From Bacillus sp. EAC (GTDB lineage Bacteria; Bacillota; Bacilli; Bacillales; Bacillaceae_G), in NCBI RefSeq assembly GCF_002156875.1, contig NZ_NCSY01000002.1, forward strand, positions 310,001 through 374,000: DNA of 64,000 nt. Direction: 5' to 3'. Positions 29,088 through 50,707 of the stretch are shown one piece after another. Numbering within the stretch: position 1 is the first letter of the stretch; every line of letters begins with the position of its first letter. The notes under the pieces are model-generated. The model made no database searches, had not been told where the DNA came from, and was given only the letters and a program-made list of their open reading frames with translations. Position numbers and translations under genes: made by a program.

Positions 29088-29225
29088 ATGCAAGCAGAGT
29101 TAAAAGAATACAATCTTGAAATGAGTTGGACAGATTTATTGTTAGAATGTATTGATGCAGGGATTACTCCTGAGGAAGTTCGTTCTTTTCTTTACAATTA
29201 CATTAAAGATCCATGTCAAATCTAG
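29088..29225 (+). CDS. sinI: SinI-like anti-repressor
   Basis: 45 aa, too short for a standard ORF list. GGGAGG stands 9 bases before the ATG. Residues 13-38 (SWTDLLLECIDAGITPEEVR) match the SinI helix that displaces SinR dimers (EWVELMVEAKEANISPEEIR in B. subtilis). It should bind the C-terminal helices of SinR and lift repression of matrix genes. sinR follows 62 bases downstream in the same direction. Its mRNA leader carries a c-di-GMP-I riboswitch and a Spo0A box stands further upstream, so its level probably reports both signals. Confidence 0.9.
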   Translation: MQAELKEYNLEMSWTDLLLECIDAGITPEEVRSFLYNYIKDPCQI

Positions 29226-29287
29226 AAGTATAACTTCTCGTTATGATATACTTTTTGTAATAGTTCAAAAAAGATATGGAGTAGCCT

Positions 29288-29608
29288 ATGATCGGAGAAC
29301 GCATAAAAAAACTACGTTTACAACATGGAATGTCTTTAACAGAGCTTGCTGAACGTGCAGGCATAGCAAAATCCTATATAAGCTCAATTGAGCGCAATCT
29401 ACAAAGCAATCCATCAATTCAGGTGCTTGAAAAAATTGCAGGGGTTTTTAATACAACAGCTGAAAACCTTCTAAAAGAAGACCTTAATCCAGAGAAAATG
29501 ATTGACTCTGAGTGGATGAATATTCTTCAGGAAGCGATTAATTCGGGGATTCCTAAAGAAGAATTAATCAGGTTTATTGAATTTAATAAGTATAAACAAG
29601 GAAAATAA
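29288..29608 (+). CDS. sinR: SinR-like biofilm master repressor
   Basis: 106 aa. Residues 1-62 form an Xre/Cro-type helix-turn-helix (IGERIKKLRLQHGMSLTELA, then AKSYISSIERNLQSNPSIQV). Residues about 73-103 (DSEWMNILQEAINSGIPKEE, LIRFIEFNKYKQ) are the SinI-type oligomerisation helices. B. subtilis SinR represses eps and tapA-sipW-tasA by binding GTTCTYT motifs. Here a matching palindrome lies at 33283 in the promoter of the facing operon. A perfect terminator ends the pair. Confidence 0.95.
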   Translation: MIGERIKKLRLQHGMSLTELAERAGIAKSYISSIERNLQSNPSIQVLEKIAGVFNTTAENLLKEDLNPEKMIDSEWMNILQEAINSGIPKEELIRFIEFNKYKQGK

Positions 29609-29652
29609 CCCTTGAAATTAAGTCATTAGCCACTTAATTTCAAGGGTTTTTG
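29607..29652 (+). terminator. Terminator of sinI-sinR
   Basis: 17-bp stem AACCCTTGAAATTAAGT with complement, 8-nt loop, then TTTTT. It overlaps the sinR stop codon. Confidence 0.93.
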
Positions 29653-29692
29653 AATTGTTTCTTAAAGATTTTTTATAAGAATATCGTTACTA

Positions 29693-29826
29693 TTGAAATT
29701 GATTGGAACGGAAGGTGCGAGACTCCTGTGGGAGTAGCGGGAAGGTGAGACCCCTCAAGGCGCATTTCCGCTGAGGAGGCTCACCGCCCGCCCCACTAAA
29801 AAGCGAGCATCCTGTAGTGGAAATTA
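29693..29826 (-). repeat. Interspersed GC-rich repeat, copy F (inverted)
   Basis: Reverse-complement copy of the 13401 and 13628 elements: CGGAAGGTGCGAGACTCCTG, then GAGGAGGCTCACCGCCCGCC and AGCGAGCATCCTGTAGTGG. It sits in the convergent gap between sinR and the coiled-coil operon. Confidence 0.88.
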
Positions 29827-29877
29827 GATAGTTTCCTGTTGAATAGATTAAAAAAGAAAACAGACTCGATTAAAAAT

Positions 29878-29927
29878 GAAGGGACGTCTCTTAATTCGAT
29901 GTTCGACTTAGAGACGCCCCTTCATTT
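29878..29927 (-). terminator. Terminator of the coiled-coil matrix-like operon
   Basis: 14-bp stem (GAAGGGGCGTCTCT pairing with AGAGACGTCCCTTC, one G-U), 18-nt loop, then ATTTTTAA on the minus strand. Confidence 0.85.
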
Positions 29928-30012
29928 TATGATGGTTTACTATTTCATGATTATCAACTGTAATCATTTTTAAATATCAACCTATCTTGGTAGTCCAATT
30001 ACTTAAACTACT

Positions 30013-31194
30013 TTATTTTGTTTGGTCATACGTTAATAAAATATTATCTACAAATCCAGCATCTTTGTTTGCACTGCCAGACTTATCCTTTGAATAAGAA
30101 AGTGTTAAAGTATGTGTTCCTGGTTGGATCGCTTGTTTTAAATTTGTCCAATGACCACCCGCACCAGAATCAGATACTAATACAGTTCCATCTAATGAAA
30201 TCGTTAAGAAATCTTTATTTTGTTGTGAACGAACTAAGTAATCAAATGATAAGTATGAATTATAAGCATTGTTTGGAACAGTAATCGTCACATTTGATGT
30301 AGACGTTTGATCATTCGTAATATTATTACTAATCGTATAGTAATCAGACTCTCCATCAATTCTCTCGTTACTTCTTACCCAATCACCAACCATTGGAAAC
30401 GCATAGCTCGTATCTTCAAAATCCTCTAATACCGATTTTTGTGCAGTGTATAATGTGTTTGCTATATTTGCCATATCAGTAACTGCTGAATCTTTAATTG
30501 AGCTAGCTTTATCACCTAAAGCTCGAGCTTTCTTAAATTCTAATTCTTCAGTTGCTTGATTGATTAACTGTTGTACGACAGCAATTTGGTTTGTTAAATA
30601 TGTTTTAACTTGAGAATCTGCTGTTCCTTTTTGCAAATCAATTAATTGTGTCAGAGAAGCTTTTGCATCATTTATTGCTTTTTCAAGCGCTTGAAGAGCT
30701 TTTGCTTTCTCATTATTAATTGATTGTTGTCCATTTGATACTTGCGTACTAAAATCAGGTTTTAGTCCTGCTACTTGACCTTCAACTCCCGCTGTCGTTT
30801 TTGCATTTAATTGTTCAATTAAAGCTGAAAATTGACCTGGAGTACTGCTATTGATACTTTGTAGAGCAGCATTTAACTCACTTTGATGGTCATTATATTG
30901 CCCATTAATCGTACTTGCTCCACTTGTAGCAAGTTCTCCCGCCTTGTTATTAATAGCAGTTCCAGTATCTCCAACGTAAGTATTTAATCGGTTTTGCATT
31001 GAATTGATTTTATCAGTTGTCTGCGTACCAAGTGTCTTACTTACTGTAGATTTTGCATCATTTAAAATTGTATTAGCATATTTAGTAAATAAATCACCTG
31101 CATTCGATGATGCAAATGCAGTTCCTGCTGATGAAACTAAACCGGCAATAATTAAGCCTGCTACGATTTTCTTTTTAGCGAATTTTTTCTTCAT
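30013..31194 (-). CDS. Secreted coiled-coil protein with C-terminal beta-sandwich, in the TasA position
   Basis: 393 aa, GGAGG before the ATG. Signal peptide residues 1-29 (KKKFAKKKIVAGLIIAGLVS, cleavage after AFA). The mature start SSNAGDLFTKYANTILNDAK is shared with the 32468 protein (SSNAGTLLTNWANTKTNNAK), and the two are paralogous to about residue 255: long Ala/Gln/Asn-rich helices likely to coil. The last ~130 residues (from about 262) form a separate domain (DSSYAFPMVGDWV-like start, VTITVPNNAYNSYLSFDYLV, GTHTLTLSYSKDKSGS), resembling a carbohydrate-binding jelly roll. Last gene of an operon with a dedicated signal peptidase, convergent with sinIR exactly where tasA lies in B. subtilis, yet it is not a TasA/camelysin homologue. 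Probable matrix or fibre protein (inference). Confidence 0.75.
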   Translation of the reverse strand: MKKKFAKKKIVAGLIIAGLVSSAGTAFASSNAGDLFTKYANTILNDAKSTVSKTLGTQTTDKINSMQNRLNTYVGDTGTAINNKAGELATSGASTINGQYNDHQSELNAALQSINSSTPGQFSALIEQLNAKTTAGVEGQVAGLKPDFSTQVSNGQQSINNEKAKALQALEKAINDAKASLTQLIDLQKGTADSQVKTYLTNQIAVVQQLINQATEELEFKKARALGDKASSIKDSAVTDMANIANTLYTAQKSVLEDFEDTSYAFPMVGDWVRSNERIDGESDYYTISNNITNDQTSTSNVTITVPNNAYNSYLSFDYLVRSQQNKDFLTISLDGTVLVSDSGAGGHWTNLKQAIQPGTHTLTLSYSKDKSGSANKDAGFVDNILLTYDQTK

Positions 31195-31222
31195 TATCTT
31201 CCCTTGCCTCCATTAGATCAAA

Positions 31223-31804
31223 TTACACTTTTAGTATTTTTGCAATTTTATGAAAAGGTAGTACTGAAAATATCACGTAACCTTTTAATTTCGATATTGG
31301 TATAAATCCAAATTCCTTACTTCGGCTATCGTAACTGATGCCTGGTTCTCTATTGTCTCCTACAACAAACAAGCTGTTTTTAGGGACAATCACTTTTTCC
31401 ATATCCTCAGATACTCCATATGTAGAAATTTCCGGGACTGCTAGGTCATTCACATAAATAACCCCTTTTGTAATTTGAACAGTGTCTCCAGGAACTCCAA
31501 CTATGCGCTTCACAATATCAAAATTCTTACTATCTAAATGAAGGATGGCAACATCACCAAGCACCGGTTCATGGTAATATCTAGCTAATTTATTAACAAA
31601 TACTAGATCCCTATCATTTAAAGTAGGAAACATCGATACTCCACTTACTCTAGTAAAACCAATCGTATTTAGTACAATGATTAAAGATGTAATAAGTACA
31701 AGAAAGAATTTTCCCCATTCGATCAAAGATTTGTTAATCGATTTTGAGTTAACATTCTCTACTTTATTAGGTTCGATTCGTTCATCAATATGGATCATAC
31801 TCAT
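31223..31804 (-). CDS. Type I signal peptidase of the coiled-coil operon
   Basis: 193 aa with one N-terminal membrane helix (about residues 32-50) and the S26A catalytic core outside. Nucleophile S57 in GVSMFPTL, general base K99 in DIVKRIVGVPGD, and the later box VVGDNREPGISYDSR are all present. The Lys general base marks the bacterial (P) type, not the ER-type SipW with His. Its ATG overlaps the stop of the upstream coiled-coil gene by 4 bases and the downstream secreted protein starts 28 bases after it. This enclosed position suggests that it processes the operon's own exported proteins, as SipW does for TasA and TapA. Confidence 0.92.
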   Translation of the reverse strand: MSMIHIDERIEPNKVENVNSKSINKSLIEWGKFFLVLITSLIIVLNTIGFTRVSGVSMFPTLNDRDLVFVNKLARYYHEPVLGDVAILHLDSKNFDIVKRIVGVPGDTVQITKGVIYVNDLAVPEISTYGVSEDMEKVIVPKNSLFVVGDNREPGISYDSRSKEFGFIPISKLKGYVIFSVLPFHKIAKILKV

Positions 31805-32373
31805 TTCTGTTTCTCAACGTTAGAATCAGTATCAGTAGAATCTGTTTTGTTGCCGGAATCTGTATCACTTGAATCTACTTTGTTAGAATCAGTAACAGGA
31901 TTGCTTTCACTTTGTCCATCTTGCTTTTCAGCTGTTTCTTTAATTTGATCCATTGCATTTTGTATAATTTCATCAATTTGTTCTTTTGTAGCTTCTACAT
32001 CCTTGTCGCTTTTCTCATCAATTTGTTTAATCATTTCATCCGCATATTTTTGCAATTCTGCTTGCGATTCAGCGTTTTTTTCAATAGCATACTGCTGGAT
32101 TTCTTCAGCTGATTGCTTTGCTTTTAGCTGAACCTCCTCTATTAAACGAGCTTTTTGTTTAATTGATTCCGCTTCAGTCATGCCAATGATATAATCATTT
32201 GATTGTTGAATTTGCTGGCTTGTCCAAGAGGTTATTGCCGCAGGTAGATTAGTATCGGCAAACGAAAATGTAGTTGCTGCAATTAATCCACCATTTAATG
32301 TAACAAATCCAATTACTAGTTTTTTAGCATTTCTTTTTATCCAAGATTGTTTTTTTTCAATACTATTCTGCAT
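31801..32373 (-). CDS. Secreted acidic coiled-coil protein, in the TapA position
   Basis: 190 aa, AGGAGG 6 bases before the ATG. Signal peptide to about residue 39 (KKLVIGFVTLNGGLIAATTF, then SFA). Residues about 45-150 are a long heptad-rich helix (IEEVQLKAKQSAEEIQQYAI, then EIIQNAMDQIKETAEK). The final ~35 residues are a low-complexity Ser/Thr/Asp tail (SNPVTDSNKVDSSDTDSGNK). No TapA or known adhesin motif is recognised. Translationally coupled to the signal peptidase gene by an ATGA overlap. Likely an accessory component that binds the two larger coiled-coil proteins (inference). Confidence 0.75.
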   Translation of the reverse strand: MQNSIEKKQSWIKRNAKKLVIGFVTLNGGLIAATTFSFADTNLPAAITSWTSQQIQQSNDYIIGMTEAESIKQKARLIEEVQLKAKQSAEEIQQYAIEKNAESQAELQKYADEMIKQIDEKSDKDVEATKEQIDEIIQNAMDQIKETAEKQDGQSESNPVTDSNKVDSSDTDSGNKTDSTDTDSNVEKQK

Positions 32374-32416
32374 AGTTACCTCCTACGGCCGCAATTCAAA
32401 ATCAAACTTTTTAATA

Positions 32417-32454
32417 GGGCTGTCCTAAAATCGGTGGTATTTATGAAACAGCCC
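32417..32454 (-). promoter_or_regulatory. Hairpin between operon genes 1 and 2
   Basis: GGGCTGT paired with ACAGCCC around a 24-nt loop, in the 94-base gap. There is no T-run, so it is probably an mRNA processing or stability element that lets the first gene be made in excess. Confidence 0.5.
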
Positions 32455-32467
32455 ATTCATTTTTTAC

Positions 32468-33238
32468 TTATTTATTGATCGCATCTACTAACTCTTGCAT
32501 TTCAGCTTTTGCATCATTTGTAGCTTGTGTTTGTGTAGCTTCTAACGTTCCAATCGCTTCTGCTTTTTTAGCATCAATTTCTGATTTTAAAGCCGTTTCA
32601 ATACGATTGATTTCAGACTCTAAATGACCTAGTACAGCAGATTGAGCTGCAGTTTGTTGTGTTGAAATCAAGCTTTCAATTGAAGCCTTAGCTTCTTGAA
32701 TTTTTGCAATTAACTTATTAACTGCATCAGAACGTGATGCACCTAGATCAGTTTGAAGTTTAGTGTCTGCACTTTTCGCAACAGCAGATAATTGTGTATT
32801 AAAGCTGCTATTTAATGTATTTTTTAAGTTATTAAGGTTAGTTGTTGTGTCGCCGTTTGTTTTCGTAACATATGCAGCGAAATCAGATGGAACACTCATA
32901 TTTAAAGCTGTTAATGCATTAGAGATAGCAGTTAAATGCTCTTGTAATGCAGCATTAATTTGTGTGTTTGCTGTATTCGTTTGTGCAGTTCCAACAGCTT
33001 CAATGTTGTCTGCAGCTCCAACTTTATATGCATTTACATTTGACGTCATTGTAGCAACGTCAGTATTGTATTTCGCATTGTAAGCAGTTGTCACATCAGT
33101 TTTTGCGTTATTAGTTTTCGTATTAGCCCAATTAGTTAATAATGTACCTGCATTACTACTAGCAAAAGCAACTCCCCCAGAGATTAATAGACCAGCAGAT
33201 ACTACGCTAATTACGATTTTACTTTTAATCTTTTTCAT
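32468..33238 (-). CDS. Secreted coiled-coil protein, first gene of the matrix-like operon
   Basis: 256 aa, GGGAGAG before the ATG. Signal peptide residues 1-26 (KKIKSKIVISVVSAGLLISG, then GVAFA). The mature chain is almost wholly helical, rich in Ala, Thr, Asn and Gln, with no cysteine. It parallels the helical part of the 30013 protein, including SSNAGTLLTNWAN at the mature N-terminus and KIQEAKASIESLISTQQTAA versus AINDAKASLTQLIDLQKGTA. It lacks the C-terminal beta domain. A strong sigma-A promoter and a SinR-type palindrome precede it. Probable fibre or matrix subunit; family unknown to me. Confidence 0.8.
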   Translation of the reverse strand: MKKIKSKIVISVVSAGLLISGGVAFASSNAGTLLTNWANTKTNNAKTDVTTAYNAKYNTDVATMTSNVNAYKVGAADNIEAVGTAQTNTANTQINAALQEHLTAISNALTALNMSVPSDFAAYVTKTNGDTTTNLNNLKNTLNSSFNTQLSAVAKSADTKLQTDLGASRSDAVNKLIAKIQEAKASIESLISTQQTAAQSAVLGHLESEINRIETALKSEIDAKKAEAIGTLEATQTQATNDAKAEMQELVDAINK

Positions 33239-33282
33239 TTAATTCTCTCCCTTTAATCATCTAATAGTATATTTTGTATTTC

Positions 33283-33298
33283 GTTCTTTATGAAGAAC
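33283..33298. promoter_or_regulatory. SinR-type operator in the coiled-coil operon leader
   Basis: GTTCTTTATGAAGAAC: two inverted SinR half-sites with the 16-bp spacing seen in B. subtilis SinR operators (GTTCTYT facing its complement). It lies about 13-28 bases after the -10 of the promoter at 33311-33339, a good position for repression. Confidence 0.75.
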
Positions 33299-33310
33299 AA
33301 CTACGTACTA

Positions 33311-33339
33311 AATATACAAAATATCGAACAAATTGACAA
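33311..33339 (-). promoter_or_regulatory. Sigma-A promoter of the coiled-coil operon
   Basis: On the minus strand TTGTCA, a 17-base spacer, then TATATT. Each hexamer matches five of six consensus bases. Confidence 0.75.
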
Positions 33340-33628: not shown

Positions 33629-36600
33629 TTACAGACCTAAATCCTTTAATACATCCTCTAATTTCTTACCTTTGTAAGCTAATTTAGCTTTAGGTGGATT
33701 AGTAGCTGTTGGGTTTTGTGCAGTGTAGTTATTTACTACATATGCCATATCACTTTGATCCACTTTGCCATCAAAATTGATATCTGCTGCACGTTTATTT
33801 GTTGCCCAGTAAGTTTGTAAGTATATTGCATCTTGAACGTCAACTACATTATCCTGGTTAACATCCCCTGCAAGAGTACTTACATCACCTGTACTAACAT
33901 TTAATCCCACTGCCTTACCGTTTTGGTCTTCACCTACAACAACATTTTGAGTGTAAGTAAAATGGCCTGGTACACTGACCGTTAAAGTATACGGTACAGT
34001 TGAAGCAGGTAATTTCGTAGCAACAAATGAACCATTTGCAGATACTGAAACATTAAATGATTGTCCTTGACTATTTTTCAAAGTAACAGTTGCTAGTTTT
34101 GTATAATCCGTATTAGCTTTCGTAGCTCCCGTATCTGATGTAAATGCATTAGCTTTTACATTTCCAGTTAACTTTCCGAAAGTAGGAATTACATTAATAC
34201 TGCTTCCAGCATGAGCTAAATTTACCACTTGGTCACTTGCATTCGTATAGCTTGCAGATTGGCTATCAAATGCTACATTTTTCGTGAAATCATCATCTTT
34301 TACCTTTACATTAATCGTAAATAATGGTTCATTTCCTGATAAAGATTGACCTGTAGCAGCGTTATAATTAACTGTATAAATTGTTTGGCTACCACTTGTT
34401 TGAGTCGTAAATGCTGCTGAACCACTAGCTGCAGTTACATTGTTTACTGCTGCAAATGCAGTTGGTAATGCAAATTTATACGTTGCATTTTTAGCATTTT
34501 GTAAATTGTAACCAGTTACTGCAAAATTAACTGAATCACCAGATTGAACTGACGTTGCAGATGGTTGAGCATATAAGTAAGAGCTTCCTTTTTTCACTAA
34601 AGTGAACGTCTTACTTCCAGCGTAGTTTGATGCAGCATCTGCACCTGAAATTCTAATCGTTGTTACATCTTGATTTGGAAGTGTCACTGAAGCTGAGAAT
34701 GTCCCATCACTATTGACCGCAACAGCTTTACCAGCACCACCATTTACATAATATTTAAGTGTATTTTTAGACTGACTAACTGCCAAGCCAAGAGCTTTTG
34801 CATCTTCAATGTCTTGGTCAAATAACTTACCTGAAATTGTTGTCGAAGTTCCTTCCACTTCTTTAATTGGAATACCAGCATCTAAATTCGTTTCGAAAAC
34901 TGGTTTATTTCCTTCAACAATAAAGTCATCCGTTGTAGTTGTTTGTTTAGAAGATACTTCACTTGTACCAACTAGTTTAATTTTATAATGTCCAGGTTTT
35001 GCATGAACTACTTCATTCGTAATTTGGTTATCTTCAATTTTTAAATAAGTTCCATCGAAGAAATTACTGATTTGTAATGTAGCACCATCACCAATCGCAT
35101 ATCCATCTACTTGACCTAGATATCCAACATCCTTACCATTTTCATCTTGAACAACGAAGTCAATCGTTCTCATCATTGAATTGTTTTGGAAAATTAAGCT
35201 AGCGAATGGATCATAGTATTCAGTTGGCTCTGTACTACTTGTAACTAGAGGATCAAGCACCAGTACGCCTGCGAATCCTTCTGTTACTGTACGAATAGAC
35301 CAAGGGATTTGATATTCCTCTGCAGGATTATCTTTATTTGTTAGCACGATATATCCTTCATAAATTCCTTTTGCTGCTGTACTTGGTACATTAATTGACG
35401 CTTTAATCGTTTTAGTTGAAATGCCTTTTGCTGTAAGTAATTGTTTACCATTTGCATCTGTTGTTAGTCCTGATAATGAAACGGCTACACCATTTGCAGC
35501 TGGATCTAATGAACCTCTTGTTCCAACTTGGTTAACAAAACTCACATTAAATGTTTTTGCTTTCTCACTTCTATTCTTAACTTCAACTGATTTAGTACTT
35601 GTAAAATTACCATCAGTTAAAACATCAAGTCCAAAACTTAGCGCGCCAGTTCGGTCTTTAATTGGTTTCAACCTGTTTTTCACAACGCTATCCGTTTTAT
35701 CAAGAACTTTAACTTCTAATTGAGAATGAATCGCTTCATACGGATCCATTAATCCTGCACCTTGCTCGAATACACTGTACGGAAGGTCTAAATCATCAGA
35801 CGTATTCATTAAGATTGTTTTTACATCTTCTGGTTCTAATCCAGGATTAGCTTGTAATAATAAAGCTGCAGCTCCAGCAACATTTGGTGCTGCCATTGAT
35901 GTTCCTGAAAGTGGTTCATATGCAAAACTATAGTCTGTAGGGTCATTATGATTGCTAATATAAGCAGGAACTGTTGATAAGATACTTTCACCTGGTGCTA
36001 CAATTTCAGGTTTAATATCATAGTTGTAACGAGACGGACCTCGAGAACTAAAATCTGTAATTGTATTACCTTTTGTTTCTTTAACAGCTAAACCACTTAG
36101 CGTAACTTGTGTGCTTCCTGCATCTAATTTTGCTTTCATTGCCATACCGTTTTCGTATGAAGTTGTAAACGTTGGAAGGAAATCAATCCCCTCACCTACA
36201 GAAAGGTTAATATCGCCTTTACCTGCATTTGCAGCACTATTATGAATCAAAACAACTGCAGCACCAGCATCATAAGCATTTTTAATTTTATCTACGAATG
36301 CATATACTCCGCGTGAAATTAAAACGGCTTTCCCTTTTACATCTTTTCCAACAAAATCTCCAGGTGCTCCTAAGCCTGCATAAACTACCTCATAAGACTT
36401 ACCTTCTAAGTCCGTTAGATTATCCTTAATTCCTTTTGCCATTTGTGACCAGCCATTAAGGGTATAAGGATCACCGTTACCTTCTAATTTTGTATTAATA
36501 CTATATCGAGTAGATGGAAGAGAAGACGCACCAACCGTTAATGCAAGTGCAGCTGTACCAGGTGAACCTAGCGTATACATATTTGGTCCACTATTACCAG

Positions 36601-37726
36601 CAGATACAACAGCCGTAACACCAGCTAATACTGCATTGTTAATGGCGATACTCTCAGGAATTAATGGATCATTTACAGCTGATCCTAATGAAAGGTTCAT
36701 AACGTCCATACCTTCTTGTACAGCACGATCGATACCTGCAATTACATTTTCAGACGATCCACTACCATATGGTCCAAGAACACGGTAAACATAAATGTCT
36801 GCATCAGGAGCCATACCAACTGTGCGATAAGCACTATCATTTTTTCCACGACCCGCAATGATACCTGACACGTGTGATCCATGTTCAGTATAATAAGCAC
36901 TTCCTCTTTCATTTAATTCAGGCTCACCTGAATTCTTCCAATCTTCATATGTAGTTTCCATTGGGTCACTATCATTATCTACAAAATCGTATCCGCCTTT
37001 ATATGCATCTCTTAAATCTGGGTGATTATAATCAATACCAGTATCGATTACAGCTACTTTAATTCCTTTTCCTGTAATCTTTTCTTCATGTAGCTTATCA
37101 ATGTTGATTGATGGAATTTGATTACTAGTCGATTGATTTGCTCCAGCCATCTCTTTAATATCTTGCTTATCCTGCTTAATTACAGGCTCACCGTATACCT
37201 TAACACTGCTATAAATTGCTTTAACAGCTTTTGATTTTAATAAAGTCTCAATTTGATTTGCTGGTAGTTTCATAGAAACACCATTTAAAGCATTTTTATA
37301 CGTATTATTAATTTGGTAATTTACTTTATTACTTAATAATGACTGTACATCCTTTTTAAACTCTTGATGACTTGCGTCAACCTTTGCTTGTGCCTCATTT
37401 AGAGACAAATTACCACCTTCAAGCTTTGACTCGAGTTGTGCAACAACAGCTGGCTTCTGATTAAACTCAACAATAATTGAAGTTTGAGCAGAACTATTTA
37501 AATTAACATCAGGTGATAACTGAAGACCAGATACATCTGATGCTTGTAATGTTTTTAATGCTGTACGTTGTGCAGAAGTTAAAGATGCTAAATAATCTTC
37601 TACTTTGCTATAACTCTTTCCCGTTGCAGCGTATGTTGCTTGATTAAATGATGGCAATAGCATTGTAGTTGACATAGCTACTGCGATCGTCCCCCTTAAT
37701 AACTGCTTTTTCTTTTTCTTATTCAT
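33629..37726 (-). CDS. Multidomain S8 protease with cohesin-like and dockerin domains
   Basis: Start ATG at 37726 (AGGAGGAG upstream); a longer in-frame extension lies in the leader. 1365 aa. Signal peptide to about 34; I9-type propeptide about 80-180; S8 domain with D228 (VIDTGID), H282 (EHGSHVSG) and S610 (SGTSMAAP), interrupted by a PA domain near 410-550. Next comes a Fn3-like C5a-peptidase-type region (~700-830), further beta domains, a cohesin-like domain (~1080-1210, YAQPSATSVQSGDSVNFAVT), a carboxypeptidase-regulatory-like domain (~1220-1290), and a type I dockerin (~1290-1345) with two calcium loops (DVNQDNVVDVQDA; DINFDGKVDQSD). No wall anchor, so it may attach by cohesin-dockerin contacts. 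Self-assembly between copies is possible (inference). Confidence 0.9.
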   Translation of the reverse strand: MNKKKKKQLLRGTIAVAMSTTMLLPSFNQATYAATGKSYSKVEDYLASLTSAQRTALKTLQASDVSGLQLSPDVNLNSSAQTSIIVEFNQKPAVVAQLESKLEGGNLSLNEAQAKVDASHQEFKKDVQSLLSNKVNYQINNTYKNALNGVSMKLPANQIETLLKSKAVKAIYSSVKVYGEPVIKQDKQDIKEMAGANQSTSNQIPSINIDKLHEEKITGKGIKVAVIDTGIDYNHPDLRDAYKGGYDFVDNDSDPMETTYEDWKNSGEPELNERGSAYYTEHGSHVSGIIAGRGKNDSAYRTVGMAPDADIYVYRVLGPYGSGSSENVIAGIDRAVQEGMDVMNLSLGSAVNDPLIPESIAINNAVLAGVTAVVSAGNSGPNMYTLGSPGTAALALTVGASSLPSTRYSINTKLEGNGDPYTLNGWSQMAKGIKDNLTDLEGKSYEVVYAGLGAPGDFVGKDVKGKAVLISRGVYAFVDKIKNAYDAGAAVVLIHNSAANAGKGDINLSVGEGIDFLPTFTTSYENGMAMKAKLDAGSTQVTLSGLAVKETKGNTITDFSSRGPSRYNYDIKPEIVAPGESILSTVPAYISNHNDPTDYSFAYEPLSGTSMAAPNVAGAAALLLQANPGLEPEDVKTILMNTSDDLDLPYSVFEQGAGLMDPYEAIHSQLEVKVLDKTDSVVKNRLKPIKDRTGALSFGLDVLTDGNFTSTKSVEVKNRSEKAKTFNVSFVNQVGTRGSLDPAANGVAVSLSGLTTDANGKQLLTAKGISTKTIKASINVPSTAAKGIYEGYIVLTNKDNPAEEYQIPWSIRTVTEGFAGVLVLDPLVTSSTEPTEYYDPFASLIFQNNSMMRTIDFVVQDENGKDVGYLGQVDGYAIGDGATLQISNFFDGTYLKIEDNQITNEVVHAKPGHYKIKLVGTSEVSSKQTTTTDDFIVEGNKPVFETNLDAGIPIKEVEGTSTTISGKLFDQDIEDAKALGLAVSQSKNTLKYYVNGGAGKAVAVNSDGTFSASVTLPNQDVTTIRISGADAASNYAGSKTFTLVKKGSSYLYAQPSATSVQSGDSVNFAVTGYNLQNAKNATYKFALPTAFAAVNNVTAASGSAAFTTQTSGSQTIYTVNYNAATGQSLSGNEPLFTINVKVKDDDFTKNVAFDSQSASYTNASDQVVNLAHAGSSINVIPTFGKLTGNVKANAFTSDTGATKANTDYTKLATVTLKNSQGQSFNVSVSANGSFVATKLPASTVPYTLTVSVPGHFTYTQNVVVGEDQNGKAVGLNVSTGDVSTLAGDVNQDNVVDVQDAIYLQTYWATNKRAADINFDGKVDQSDMAYVVNNYTAQNPTATNPPKAKLAYKGKKLEDVLKDLGL

Positions 37727-37877
37727 GTTTCTCCTCCTAAAAATAATTAAACTGTTTGATGTACATACAAAGACGTACAAACTCAATTCTATGTAAGAAT
37801 TCTTTTTAAAGGACAATATTCCTATTAGAACTATCCGACAGAAAATTTACAAATCTAAAAATAATAAGGAATTTTGC

Positions 37878-38007: not shown

Positions 38008-38023
38008 GTTCATTATTGAGAAC
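38008..38023. promoter_or_regulatory. SinR-type palindrome upstream of the protease
   Basis: GTTCATTATTGAGAAC, same 16-bp layout as 33283. It is 282 bases before the protease start (minus strand). Confidence 0.5.
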
Positions 38024-38592: not shown

Positions 38593-38730
38593 ATGCAAGA
38601 AAGTTTATTGGACAACATTAAGGAATTAAGTTGGTTGGATCTTCTATTAGAATGTATTGAAGTTGGAATGTCGCCATCTGAAGTCCAACAATTCATAAAA
38701 GAATCAGCATCTAGAGCAAAACAGGTCTAG
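38593..38730 (+). CDS. Second SinI-like anti-repressor
   Basis: 45 aa, the same length as the first SinI; TAGGAGGGA precedes the ATG. Residues 13-33 (SWLDLLLECIEVGMSPSEVQ) match the SinR-binding helix. It lacks an intact sinR directly after it: a broken sinR remnant follows, and the next intact sinR is 2.9 kb away beyond a beta-helix gene. Unlike the first sinI, its leader has no c-di-GMP riboswitch, so the two copies should respond to different inputs. It could antagonise any of the SinR-type proteins of this locus. Confidence 0.85.
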   Translation: MQESLLDNIKELSWLDLLLECIEVGMSPSEVQQFIKESASRAKQV

Positions 38731-39050: not shown

Positions 39051-41288
39051 TTGAAAAAAATGCTTCTACTTTTCATAAGCGCCTTATTACTATTAGCTAT
39101 TGTAGTAGTACAAGTTGTCGCAATTAAAAACCCACAAAGTTACTCACCTGGAATCTCTAAATTAGCCATAACTAAAGGGAATACAGTAAAATCTCTCTCA
39201 CTAAATTTACCCACCTATTCTTTCACCAATATCAACCAAACTGCCCAAGTAAAAGTTACAGCTACTTATACTAATCTGACAAAAAAAGATGTCACAAATA
39301 CTGCAAAATATTCTATCTTGAACCAAACAATTGCAACGATTAGTAATACTGGTCTCATTACATCAAAAAGTAATGGATCAACCACATTAACTGTTAGTTT
39401 AGATGGTGTGAAAACAACTAGTACTATTAAGGTAAACAGCACTTTACCCGTCAAAACACTCGTTTCCTTAAGTGTTGTTCCTAATTCTCTTGATTTAACT
39501 ATCAATGAATCCAAAACACTTGCTGTTCAAGCAAATTATTCCGATCAATCAGTAGCAAATGTAACTTCTCAAAGCCAATTTTCTTCCTCTAATCCAAGCG
39601 TTGCAACAATTAATTCTATAGGAGCTGTTACAGCTATCAATCCTGGTACTACTACGCTCTCTGTTACTTACGGAAATATAACACAATCAGTAGTGGTAAC
39701 AGTATCAGCTTCGGTAAATCAAGTAAATGTTAAAAATTATGGTGCGATTGGTAATGGTACAAAAGATGATACGGCTGCCTTTCAATCCGCAATCGATTAT
39801 TTAGGATCCAGAGGCGGTGGTAATGTATATATTCCTGCGGGAACCTACAGTTTGAATCCAATTTTTCTTAAACCATTTGTCAATTTAGTCGGTGAAAATC
39901 GTGATACAGTTACTTTAAAATTATCTGACACTAGTGGATCTGGTTATTACCGTGTTATTACTATGGCAAATGATACAAAAATACAAAACATCACATGTGA
40001 TGGGAATGCTCAAAAACATCCAGATGGGATCGAGCACATGCATTGTATCTTTGCATACGATGCGGATCGTATTGTTATTGACAACAATCTTTTAAAAAAT
40101 GCAGTAGCAGATGGTATCTCAATTTCGGGTTCAACAGATGCTAGCAATAATGTCATTATTTCAAACAATATTTTAGAAAATAATGGACGCTCTAATATTG
40201 TCATTGAGCAAGTGAATCATTTAAAAATCTTCAATAATATTAGTACAAATACGTTAGGACGCCCGGCTTTACACTTCGAACCATGGGAAGAAATGAATTT
40301 TGATGATGCGAAAATATACAATAATACCTTTACTTCAAATGCATCTAACGGAGATTACTGTATTCAACTTGAAGGTGGAAAAAGTGATAATAATTATTTT
40401 AACCACGTCGAGTTCAATAACAATACAGTTAACTGTCCAAATGGTGGGTTCCTAGTGATGGAGACAAATGGAGCGAAAATTTTTGATAATACTCTAAACG
40501 TTAATCAAATTTTCGTTTGGATAAAAAATAAAGATCTTGAAATCTACCATAATACTATCAACTCTGTAGCGGGTTTTAAAATCGAGGGTACTTGGGGAAT
40601 AAATTCAATTAATACTCAAATTTACGATAACATTGTAACGACAAAAGACGATGCGGTTTCTATTATTGCCGGATCAGAAGATACAAAATTCTCGAGAAAC
40701 ACTTTCACCGGTAATGGTCAGGGTGCTGCCGTTTATACTTTCGCTACTGTAACAGACATCAAAAATACGTCATTCATTGATAATACCTTTACAAATTTTG
40801 ATGTTGGAATCATTACAGATTATAACTATTATGACGTTTTAAAAATAGATGGTTTACTAGTTCGGGGCAATACGTTTAAGAATTTTAATTATTTTGCTCT
40901 TTATGTCAAAGGAACGACGAAAAATGTAACAGTTGATCAAAACACCTTCACTAATGCTTCCGCTGTTTCAATTACAGTTCAAGATGGGCCAATGACAAAC
41001 ATCTCAATTACAAATAATACAATTTCAGGGGGCTTCAATGGAATTGTTCAAAGTCAAAATGGGAAAACAGGCTCCTTAGACGGTTTCTTGATTTCGGGAA
41101 ATCGCATTTCAAACACAACTGATCCAGGTGACGCATGGCATACTGGTGCAGCGATTGAATTAATCAAAGGAGCAAAAACTCCAACAAATGTGTCTATAAT
41201 AAATAATACGTTAACTGGAAATGCCGTGAATAAAATTACTGTACCAACTGCATTGCTTCCTTATGTTAAAAATAATATTTTTAATTAA
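39051..41288 (+). CDS. Exported protein with two Big2 Ig-like domains and a pectate-lyase-type beta-helix
   Basis: 745 aa, start TTG at 39051 after GGAG; the ATG at 39060 is a possible alternative. Signal peptide or anchor at residues 3-24. Residues about 55-135 and 140-225 are bacterial Ig-like (Big2) domains (ISNTGLITSKSNGSTTLTVS; INSIGAVTAINPGTTTLSVT). From about 230 the pectate lyase 3 / glycosyl hydrolase 28-type start VNVKNYGAIGNGTKDDTAAF opens a right-handed beta-helix with many NNT/DNTF turns up to the end. Catalytic residues cannot be assigned. Polysaccharide lyase or hydrolase is the usual role; acting on the organism's own exopolysaccharide is possible. It stands between sinI2 and sinR2 as if inserted. 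Confidence 0.85.
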   Translation: MKKMLLLFISALLLLAIVVVQVVAIKNPQSYSPGISKLAITKGNTVKSLSLNLPTYSFTNINQTAQVKVTATYTNLTKKDVTNTAKYSILNQTIATISNTGLITSKSNGSTTLTVSLDGVKTTSTIKVNSTLPVKTLVSLSVVPNSLDLTINESKTLAVQANYSDQSVANVTSQSQFSSSNPSVATINSIGAVTAINPGTTTLSVTYGNITQSVVVTVSASVNQVNVKNYGAIGNGTKDDTAAFQSAIDYLGSRGGGNVYIPAGTYSLNPIFLKPFVNLVGENRDTVTLKLSDTSGSGYYRVITMANDTKIQNITCDGNAQKHPDGIEHMHCIFAYDADRIVIDNNLLKNAVADGISISGSTDASNNVIISNNILENNGRSNIVIEQVNHLKIFNNISTNTLGRPALHFEPWEEMNFDDAKIYNNTFTSNASNGDYCIQLEGGKSDNNYFNHVEFNNNTVNCPNGGFLVMETNGAKIFDNTLNVNQIFVWIKNKDLEIYHNTINSVAGFKIEGTWGINSINTQIYDNIVTTKDDAVSIIAGSEDTKFSRNTFTGNGQGAAVYTFATVTDIKNTSFIDNTFTNFDVGIITDYNYYDVLKIDGLLVRGNTFKNFNYFALYVKGTTKNVTVDQNTFTNASAVSITVQDGPMTNISITNNTISGGFNGIVQSQNGKTGSLDGFLISGNRISNTTDPGDAWHTGAAIELIKGAKTPTNVSIINNTLTGNAVNKITVPTALLPYVKNNIFN

Positions 41289-41593: not shown

Positions 41594-41914
41594 ATGATCG
41601 GAGAACGCATTAAAAAACTACGTTTACAACATGGAATATCTTTAACGGAGCTTGCCGAACGTGCAGGTGTTGCAAAATCTTATATTAGTTCAATTGAACG
41701 CCAACTTCAAAGCAATCCTTCTATTCAGGTACTAGATAAAATAGCAGATGTCTTTAATACAACAGCTGAATATCTACTTAAGGAAGATAATGACGTAACG
41801 AATCAAATAGATTCTGAGTGGATGAAAATATTACAGGAAGCTATAGAATCAGGAATTCCAAAAGAGGAATTAATTAAATTTATTGAATTCAACAAGTTTA
41901 AAAAAGGTATATGA
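41594..41914 (+). CDS. Second intact SinR-like repressor
   Basis: 106 aa, about 80 percent identical by eye to the SinR at 29288: same helix-turn-helix (IGERIKKLRLQHGISLTELA, AKSYISSIERQLQSNPSIQV) and C-terminal oligomerisation helices (SEWMKILQEAIESGIPKEEL). GGGG lies 9 bases before the ATG. It has no sinI directly upstream; the second sinI is 2.9 kb away beyond the beta-helix gene. In B. subtilis the paralogue SlrR pairs with SinR to make a bistable switch, so two near-identical SinR copies could form mixed dimers. It converges with the LCP gene and shares a terminator. Confidence 0.93.
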   Translation: MIGERIKKLRLQHGISLTELAERAGVAKSYISSIERQLQSNPSIQVLDKIADVFNTTAEYLLKEDNDVTNQIDSEWMKILQEAIESGIPKEELIKFIEFNKFKKGI

Positions 41915-50344: not shown

Positions 50345-50707
50345 CTAATTATCAGCCTCTTTTTTCATATCACTACTAAATAAATTATTTTGCCATTTGA
50401 CGAATTCAAATACTGATCTGTATTCATGCAATTTTTCAATTTCAATTCCTGATTCTTTTAGTACTTTTACTAATTCAACCCATTCACTTTCGGGAAGTAT
50501 TGGGTTTTCAGGTTTTGTAGCTAAGAGGTTTTTTAAATCTACCCCTAACACTGTCGAAATTTTTTCCATTACATGTATCGAAGGATTATCGTTAATTTCA
50601 CGTTCAATATTACTTAAATAAGATTTAGAAATATTCGCTTGTTCAGCTAACTGAGTCAAAGTAAGTCCTTTTTTCTTACGAATTTTAAGTATATTTTTTC
50701 CGATCAT
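50345..50707 (-). CDS. SinR/SlrR-like regulator inside the glycan locus
   Basis: 120 aa. The Xre helix-turn-helix (IGKNILKIRKKKGLTLTQLA, SKSYLSNIEREINDNPSIHV) is SinR-like but clearly diverged from the two close SinR copies (about half identical in the HTH). The C-terminal part keeps a SinR-type helix (ESEWVELVKVLKESGIEIEK) and adds a lysine-rich tail. GAGG stands 11 bases before the ATG; the epsN-like gene ends 24 bases upstream, so it is co-transcribed with epsLMN. A locus-specific, SlrR-like partner or target of SinI is likely (inference). Confidence 0.85.
   Translation of the reverse strand: MIGKNILKIRKKKGLTLTQLAEQANISKSYLSNIEREINDNPSIHVMEKISTVLGVDLKNLLATKPENPILPESEWVELVKVLKESGIEIEKLHEYRSVFEFVKWQNNLFSSDMKKEADN

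Follow-up and report, generated by a model that had tools for sequence, protein, structure and literature searches.

The 64,000-nt window analysed here, from the soil bacterium Bacillus sp. EAC (contig NZ_NCSY01000002.1, positions 310,001 to 374,000), belongs to a genome of the genus Gottfriedia and contains a minus-strand operon of four genes, in the order ccA, ccMid, sip and ccB (names coined in the present analysis), on which a plus-strand sinI-sinR pair converges. The start of sip overlaps the stop of ccMid by 4 bases, and sip and ccB are separated by 28 bp. A preliminary description of this DNA had claimed that sinI-sinR converged on an operon for exported proteins and a signal peptidase, and all the genes that it named lie where it placed them. 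The region is organized as follows:

29088-29225, plus strand: sinI, coding for an anti-repressor of 45 amino acids (aa), from its PF08671 score and a match to the solved SinI
29288-29608, plus strand: sinR, coding for a repressor of 106 aa, from a match to the solved SinR 1b0n_A
29873-29928, minus strand: strong hairpin 3′ of ccB, from folding; a probable terminator separating the convergent units
30013-31194, minus strand: ccB, 393 aa, exported as judged from its N-terminus, with ccA-like residues 1-240 and a C-terminal domain
31223-31804, minus strand: sip, 193 aa, bacterial-type (Ser-Lys) signal peptidase I, from TIGR02227
31801-32373, minus strand: ccMid, 190 aa, helical protein with a hydrophilic C-terminal tail, exported as judged from its N-terminus
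32468-33238, minus strand: ccA, 256 aa, helical protein and core family member, exported as judged from its N-terminus
33283-33298: putative SinR operator GTTCTTCATAAAGAAC, an inverted repeat, from sequence pattern and conserved position
33311-33339, minus strand: sigma-A type promoter TTGTCA-17-TATATT, from sequence reading

The region 29860-29960, between sinIR and ccB, folds with -34.6 kcal/mol and a 19-pair stem. For the gap separating ccA from ccMid, the idea of a conserved attenuator hairpin was rejected, because the folding energy in the window (-16.7 kcal/mol) did not go beyond that of shuffled sequences and the structure was not common to the 8 orthologous gaps. The product of sinR matches the solved SinR from B. 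subtilis (1b0n_A) with 102 bits (E 1.5e-28) and that of sinI the solved SinI (1b0n_B) with 24.7 bits; against PF08671, SinI reaches 31.1 bits (E 2e-7; open reading frame 29106-29225 scanned), slightly below the cut-off of 31.4. The adjacent sinI and sinR thus code for homologs of both partners of the SinR/SinI switch, with SinI remaining just below the Pfam cut-off.

The promoter of ccA is formed by TTGTCA (33339-33334) and TATATT (33316-33311), spaced by 17 bp, and is followed by GTTCTTCATAAAGAAC at 33298-33283, which is the only exact match to GTTCTYNNNNRAGAAC in the window, where 0.02 were expected. According to PMC3163267, the highest-affinity SinR site among those tested is an inverted repeat of GTTCTYT, and the same SinR motif appears in PMC5733473; the ccA promoter carries a conserved inverted repeat of the SinR motif. 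The operator lies 52-60 bp before ccA in 9/9 Gottfriedia operons of this order (that of the window and 8 others), with the half-sites unchanged and the central bases diverged, and the promoter can be aligned by eye in all 9 ccA upstream regions, in agreement with the sigma-A promoter and SinR-type palindrome described previously. One of the site scans, which began at the longest open reading frames, overlooked for this reason the operator of four Gottfriedia loci whose upstream alignment contains it. Since the operator is conserved in 9/9 ccA operons of this order, control by SinR is strongly supported within the genus, and the ccA operon of Gottfriedia is very probably part of the SinR regulon. 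Additionally, in a tenth carrier (G001), whose operon is rearranged, an exact site precedes the ccB-like gene and a site with 1 mismatch precedes ccMid. An exact site also occurs among exopolysaccharide genes in both genomes with listed genes (L163:7792 and L166:5363), situated in the window genome between a gene that reads as kinase-like and a Polysacc_synt_2 gene, and in genome G005 at the beginning of a gene of apparent chain-length type.

The N-termini of CcA, CcMid and CcB read as signal peptides. None of the three proteins reached a curated cut-off in Pfam or NCBIfam, the highest Pfam score being that of dCache_2 on CcB (18.3 bits, with a cut-off of 26.5), and neither did the module proteins of relatives (9 examined against Pfam, 10 against NCBIfam). 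They showed no match at E up to 1 to PF12389 or NF046066, which rules them out as members of the TasA/camelysin families and agrees with the lack of resemblance to either that had been claimed. They had also been called unrelated, which holds with respect to the TasA family but, if a lack of kinship among themselves was meant, has to be corrected: CcA shares 35% identity with residues 4-240 of CcB (E 7.9e-20), and the CcMid profile matches CcA from the window (E 6.8e-10). The CcA profile matches CcMid from other species (for instance, that of G002 with E 1.4e-8), and CcMid from the window is not among its matches. Judging from these comparisons, CcA, CcMid and CcB are one family.

The domain formed by the last ca. 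135 aa of CcB has a beta-rich appearance and is conserved in 9 Gottfriedia proteins; in G001, this part of the CcB-like protein is different. The domain gave no credible match to any family or solved structure, and assignment to a known fold was dropped with a best PDB hit of E 0.65. Several other leads were discarded: the best PADLOC score, only 15.5 bits, does not sustain a role of the exported proteins in defence; weak matches below the cut-off to apolipoproteins, ATP-synthase subunits and the like were taken as pattern matches; and a regular expression for a common motif after the cleavage site was abandoned because it caught only 40 of 86 members. Searches of open-licence articles in PubMed Central returned no title or abstract opening describing the family or the operon, although a 2023 survey of hendecads (Martinez-Goikoetxea and Lupas) may list the family. 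By homology, the exported proteins look like a new family.

The product of sip scores 118.9 bits against TIGR02227, the bacterial signal peptidase I (cut-off 47), and 22.4 bits against TIGR02228, the SipW type, below the cut-off of 51.85. Residues Ser57 and Lys99, which we take to be its catalytic pair, are invariant in 11/11 aligned relatives, and its best solved relative is 4nv4. The enzyme is thus a Ser-Lys peptidase of the bacterial type and not SipW, as anticipated in the preliminary description.

A Fourier analysis of hydrophobicity in a 19-row alignment of CcA gave a peak at 96.5 degrees, equivalent to 3.73 residues per turn, with a power of 33-41 versus at most 9.5 in 300 shuffles and a phase that drifted smoothly over 229 columns. 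Peaks at 94-99 degrees were found in all proteins of the CcA class (34/34), the long members (11/11) and CcMid (33/33), as well as in 10/11 of the leaders found by profile (the exception, from L117, peaks at 102 degrees), and in none of 21 signal peptidases. All CcA-class and long proteins beat the shuffles at 0.005, and 27/33 CcMid proteins were below 0.05; these proteins are homologs and their individual counts are therefore not independent. Among 648 background segments, 6 reached a power of 11.5, with 3 of them at 94-99 degrees: four come from a single probable phage tape measure protein (97.5-100 degrees, power up to 31.5), and the other two peak at 103.0 degrees, in a protein reading as a chemotaxis receptor, and at 88.5 degrees. 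The test hence distinguishes 11-residue from 7-residue repeats; although uncommon, periods of this kind occur in other proteins as well. In 32 relatives, the C-terminal 226 residues of the CcA-class proteins contain 0-2 prolines and no cysteine. A straight helix has 3.63 residues per turn; the period of CcA, coherent when set against both shuffles and background, exceeds this value, as expected for right-handed coiled coils.

Long helices of this kind have structural parallels. In the EG peripheral stalk of A-ATPases, as described in PMC6131620, long helices combine 11- and 15-residue repeats and form right-handed coils, which the CcA family would resemble; tetrabrachion, named in the title of a reference in PMC11676326, is another of the right-handed coiled-coil stalks. 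No homology links these stalks to the proteins from the window, and the ATPase stalks are not exported.

The CcA profile matched 10/13 Gottfriedia genomes, among them those of G. luciferensis, G. acidiceleris and strains labelled Bacillus sp. The gene order beside sinIR, whose survey in relatives had been proposed in the preliminary description, is retained in 9 of these genomes and rearranged in the tenth, G001, and the module also occurs beyond the genus. The three genomes lacking a match differ among themselves: in G011, assembled in one contig, the same sinIR locus is present and the operon is missing (L177); in G003 the contig ends just after sinR (L176) and the assembly has about 800 contigs, which makes the absence unsure; and in G004 the operon facing sinIR is a different one (L171), containing SipW-type genes and a pair of camelysin-like genes, of which one exceeds the PF12389 cut-off and the other falls below it. 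This G004 locus has an exact SinR-type site and different flanks. All 13 Gottfriedia genomes have some match to PF12389, which in the window genome is a single weak and partial one (E 3.3e-5).

At the order level, 35/397 genomes matched the CcA profile, 10 from Gottfriedia and 25 from elsewhere; two of the latter (G140 and G175) were dropped for their partial, weak match, leaving 23 outside-genus genomes with a full-length ccA. ccMid was present in all 23 loci and an adjacent sip in 11 of them. The loci without sip comprise all 9 of family f11, together with L101, L118 and L119. At the class level there were 16 matches in 398 genomes, 3 of them inside the order; of the 13 beyond it, 9 strong ones were fetched and 4 weak ones dropped, and the fetched loci contained ccMid in 9/9 cases and sip in 4/9. 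Consequently, ccA and ccMid always occur together in the 32 outside-genus loci, and the peptidase in 15 of them. Outside the genus, a short leader gene often precedes ccA and the order is mostly leader-ccA-ccMid-sip, with no SinR gene beside the module in most of the genera seen. Two ccA queries had no match at E up to 1e-5 among 72,556 plasmids, and the idea that the module genes are plasmid-borne was dropped. The f11 loci (L048, L100, L106, L109, L111, L114, L115, L116 and L120) have leader-ccA-ccMid, without a signal peptidase, between genes that read as ribosomal proteins (rpsI) and a cwlD-like gene.

The regulators neighbouring the module vary outside Gottfriedia. Genes for a kinase, a NarL-type regulator and an HD-GYP phosphodiesterase adjoin it in 5/23 order-level loci (L047, L103, L108, L112 and L121; domains checked on L121 and one gene of L112), and HD-GYP genes occur in at least 3/9 class-level loci, all from one genus. 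Three exact SinR-type sites were found in 24 order-level loci outside the genus; those of L104 and L117 are located within 250 bp before the first module gene, and that of L110 is not. The module of L117 has a SinR gene convergent with it, and two further SinR genes flank the TasA-family genes of that genome. Sites with one mismatch precede the module in L107 and in 7/9 of the f11 loci, which are close relatives. SinR homologs were present in the 11/11 genomes with the module that were tested, out of 23, a count given without an order-wide baseline. The role of SinR outside the genus is, then, modestly supported by these sites and genes.

The layout of the operon invites comparison with tapA-sipW-tasA, which in B. 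subtilis is also convergent with sinIR. SipW is a peptidase of the ER/archaeal type, whereas the peptidase from the window is of the bacterial type (TIGR02227). The B. subtilis operon likewise comprises exported structural proteins and a dedicated signal peptidase under SinR control, as described in PMC9674648, where TasA is a jellyroll that polymerises by donor-strand exchange; the proteins from the window look helical and match no TasA model, and the helical period that runs along the entire mature CcA argues against such a fold. For B. cereus, PMC4292775 and PMC13082335 depict a similar SinR-linked exported filament system (sipW-tasA/calY/CapP), comprising a signal peptidase and at least two subunits, although its subunits are TasA and CalY, to whose families (PF12389/NF046066) the window proteins are unmatched. 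The module thus follows the plan of the TasA locus without belonging to the TasA family. The assignment of its genes to the TapA and TasA positions, made in the preliminary description, proved superficial, because it is ccA and not the gene at the TasA position that is found in every lineage, and because elsewhere the order differs and there is mostly no SinR gene. Moreover, PF12389 occurs in 16/23 of the outside-genus genomes with ccA, versus 180/394 in the order, indicating that the module runs beside TasA and not instead of it, and ruling it out as a general replacement of TasA.

We favour, at somewhat better than even odds, the interpretation that SinR represses this operon and that its exported products, served by a signal peptidase of their own, form an extracellular coiled-coil module of the matrix or surface. 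By occupying the inverted repeat immediately 3′ of the -10 box, SinR would block transcription, and SinI would relieve this repression at biofilm commitment, so that the operon would presumably be switched on together with the exopolysaccharide genes. CcA, CcMid and CcB would be exported by Sec and cut by the peptidase of the operon, as their N-termini and the co-conservation of sip suggest. The long mature helices, with a hydrophobic period of 3.73, could then assemble through right-handed coiled coils into extracellular rods or filaments, in which CcA might be the main rod and CcMid, shorter and with a hydrophilic tail, its partner; CcB may act as an adapter, with its extra domain binding sugar, wall or another part of the matrix. 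Of the matrix-fibre system under SinR control put forward originally, control by SinR stands on the 9/9 conserved operators; the matrix role is plausible because of the link to SinR, the co-conserved signal peptidase and the HD-GYP and two-component neighbours. An exported structural or matrix role is probable, and the chance that the proteins form filaments is a little short of even.

Several observations weigh against this interpretation. In the 13 Gottfriedia genomes there are 39 exact sites (1-5 each) versus 43 for the backwards pattern used as control, so most single sites may be due to chance, and it is the conserved position that carries the case. Outside the genus, only 3/24 loci were below 0.05 (L104, 0.015; L107 and L117, 0.03), with about 1 expected by chance, compared with 400 random 250-bp stretches per locus that may draw the true site, and no SinR-like site was found in the five loci linked to a kinase (best, 3-4 mismatches). 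An adjacent sip is missing from 12/23 order-level and 5/9 class-level loci, the kinship of CcMid with CcA may partly reflect a shared helical pattern, and the co-occurrence with TasA counts on the same side. Lastly, periodicity indicates neither oligomeric state nor fibres, and an in-register hairpin would look alike; chemotaxis receptors are such hairpins, and CcA may be one as well.

The exported helices could instead be surface-active or lipid-binding amphipathic proteins, apolipoprotein-like or forming a coat or film, and so nearer to BslA than to TasA, instead of rods or fibres. The amphipathic, alanine/threonine-rich chain and the weak matches to apolipoprotein profiles (one with 22 bits for a cut-off of 90) would fit this role; however, lipid-binding repeats of 11 or 18 residues correspond to 98-100 degrees, and CcA peaks below, at 96.5, with a power of 0.5-0.6 at 98.2 degrees versus 33-41 at its peak. 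The periodicity of the shorter CcMid does not separate both readings, and overall we consider surface activity unlikely. Slightly less likely still is that the operon codes for an exported envelope or stress module (wall stalks, sporulation, adhesion) that is merely included in the SinR regulon and is foreign to the biofilm matrix. The surroundings of the f11 loci, with their rpsI and cwlD-like genes, and the proximity of a GntR regulator in L105 point in this direction, as does the control of kinB by SinR in B. subtilis, mentioned in PMC5733473; the linkage of the module to a SinR gene or to HD-GYP and two-component genes in separate families argues against it. A literal analogy, by which tapA, sipW and tasA were swapped gene by gene within the TasA operon, shares the convergent layout and finds an echo in the SipW-/camelysin-type operon with an exact SinR-type site on which sinIR converges in G004, a genome without a ccA match. 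Nevertheless, the flanks of that locus are different, the operon is simply absent from the same sinIR locus in G011, and the module occurs far outside this locus, which largely refutes this explanation and makes it very improbable.

TasA is the textbook scaffold of Bacillus biofilms, yet 214/394 genomes sampled from the order yielded no TasA/camelysin match at E up to 0.001. An exported module that is conserved, wired to SinR and not of the TasA type is a concrete candidate for another matrix scaffold, and an example of a single regulator that has taken on different building blocks. It is conceivable, if rather less than an even bet, that the coiled-coil module represents a second type of matrix filament in Gram-positive bacteria, common across the Bacilli alongside TasA. 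Its right-handed coiled-coil rods would consist of a single undescribed family of secreted proteins, processed by a dedicated peptidase of the bacterial type, and would be wired either to SinR or to a kinase, a regulator and a c-di-GMP phosphodiesterase.

The window contains other genes and sites related to SinR. A second sinI-like gene (45 aa; 38593-38730, plus strand) and a second SinR gene (41594-41914, plus strand), whose product is 83% identical to the first, flank a beta-helix protein with a Big_2 domain (39051-41288), and a third SinR-like regulator of 120 aa (50345-50707, minus strand) adjoins a gene that reads as an ABC transporter. SinR-type palindromes with one mismatch are located at positions 38008, 43031 and 46251 of the window; counting the operator there are 4 such palindromes for 0.68 expected, a number reached by 0/100 shuffles, perhaps indicating a wider SinR regulon. 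Just upstream of the ccA operon and on the same strand (33629-37816, minus) there is a gene whose product is a large subtilase carrying PA and I9 domains and, at its C-terminus, a type I dockerin domain.

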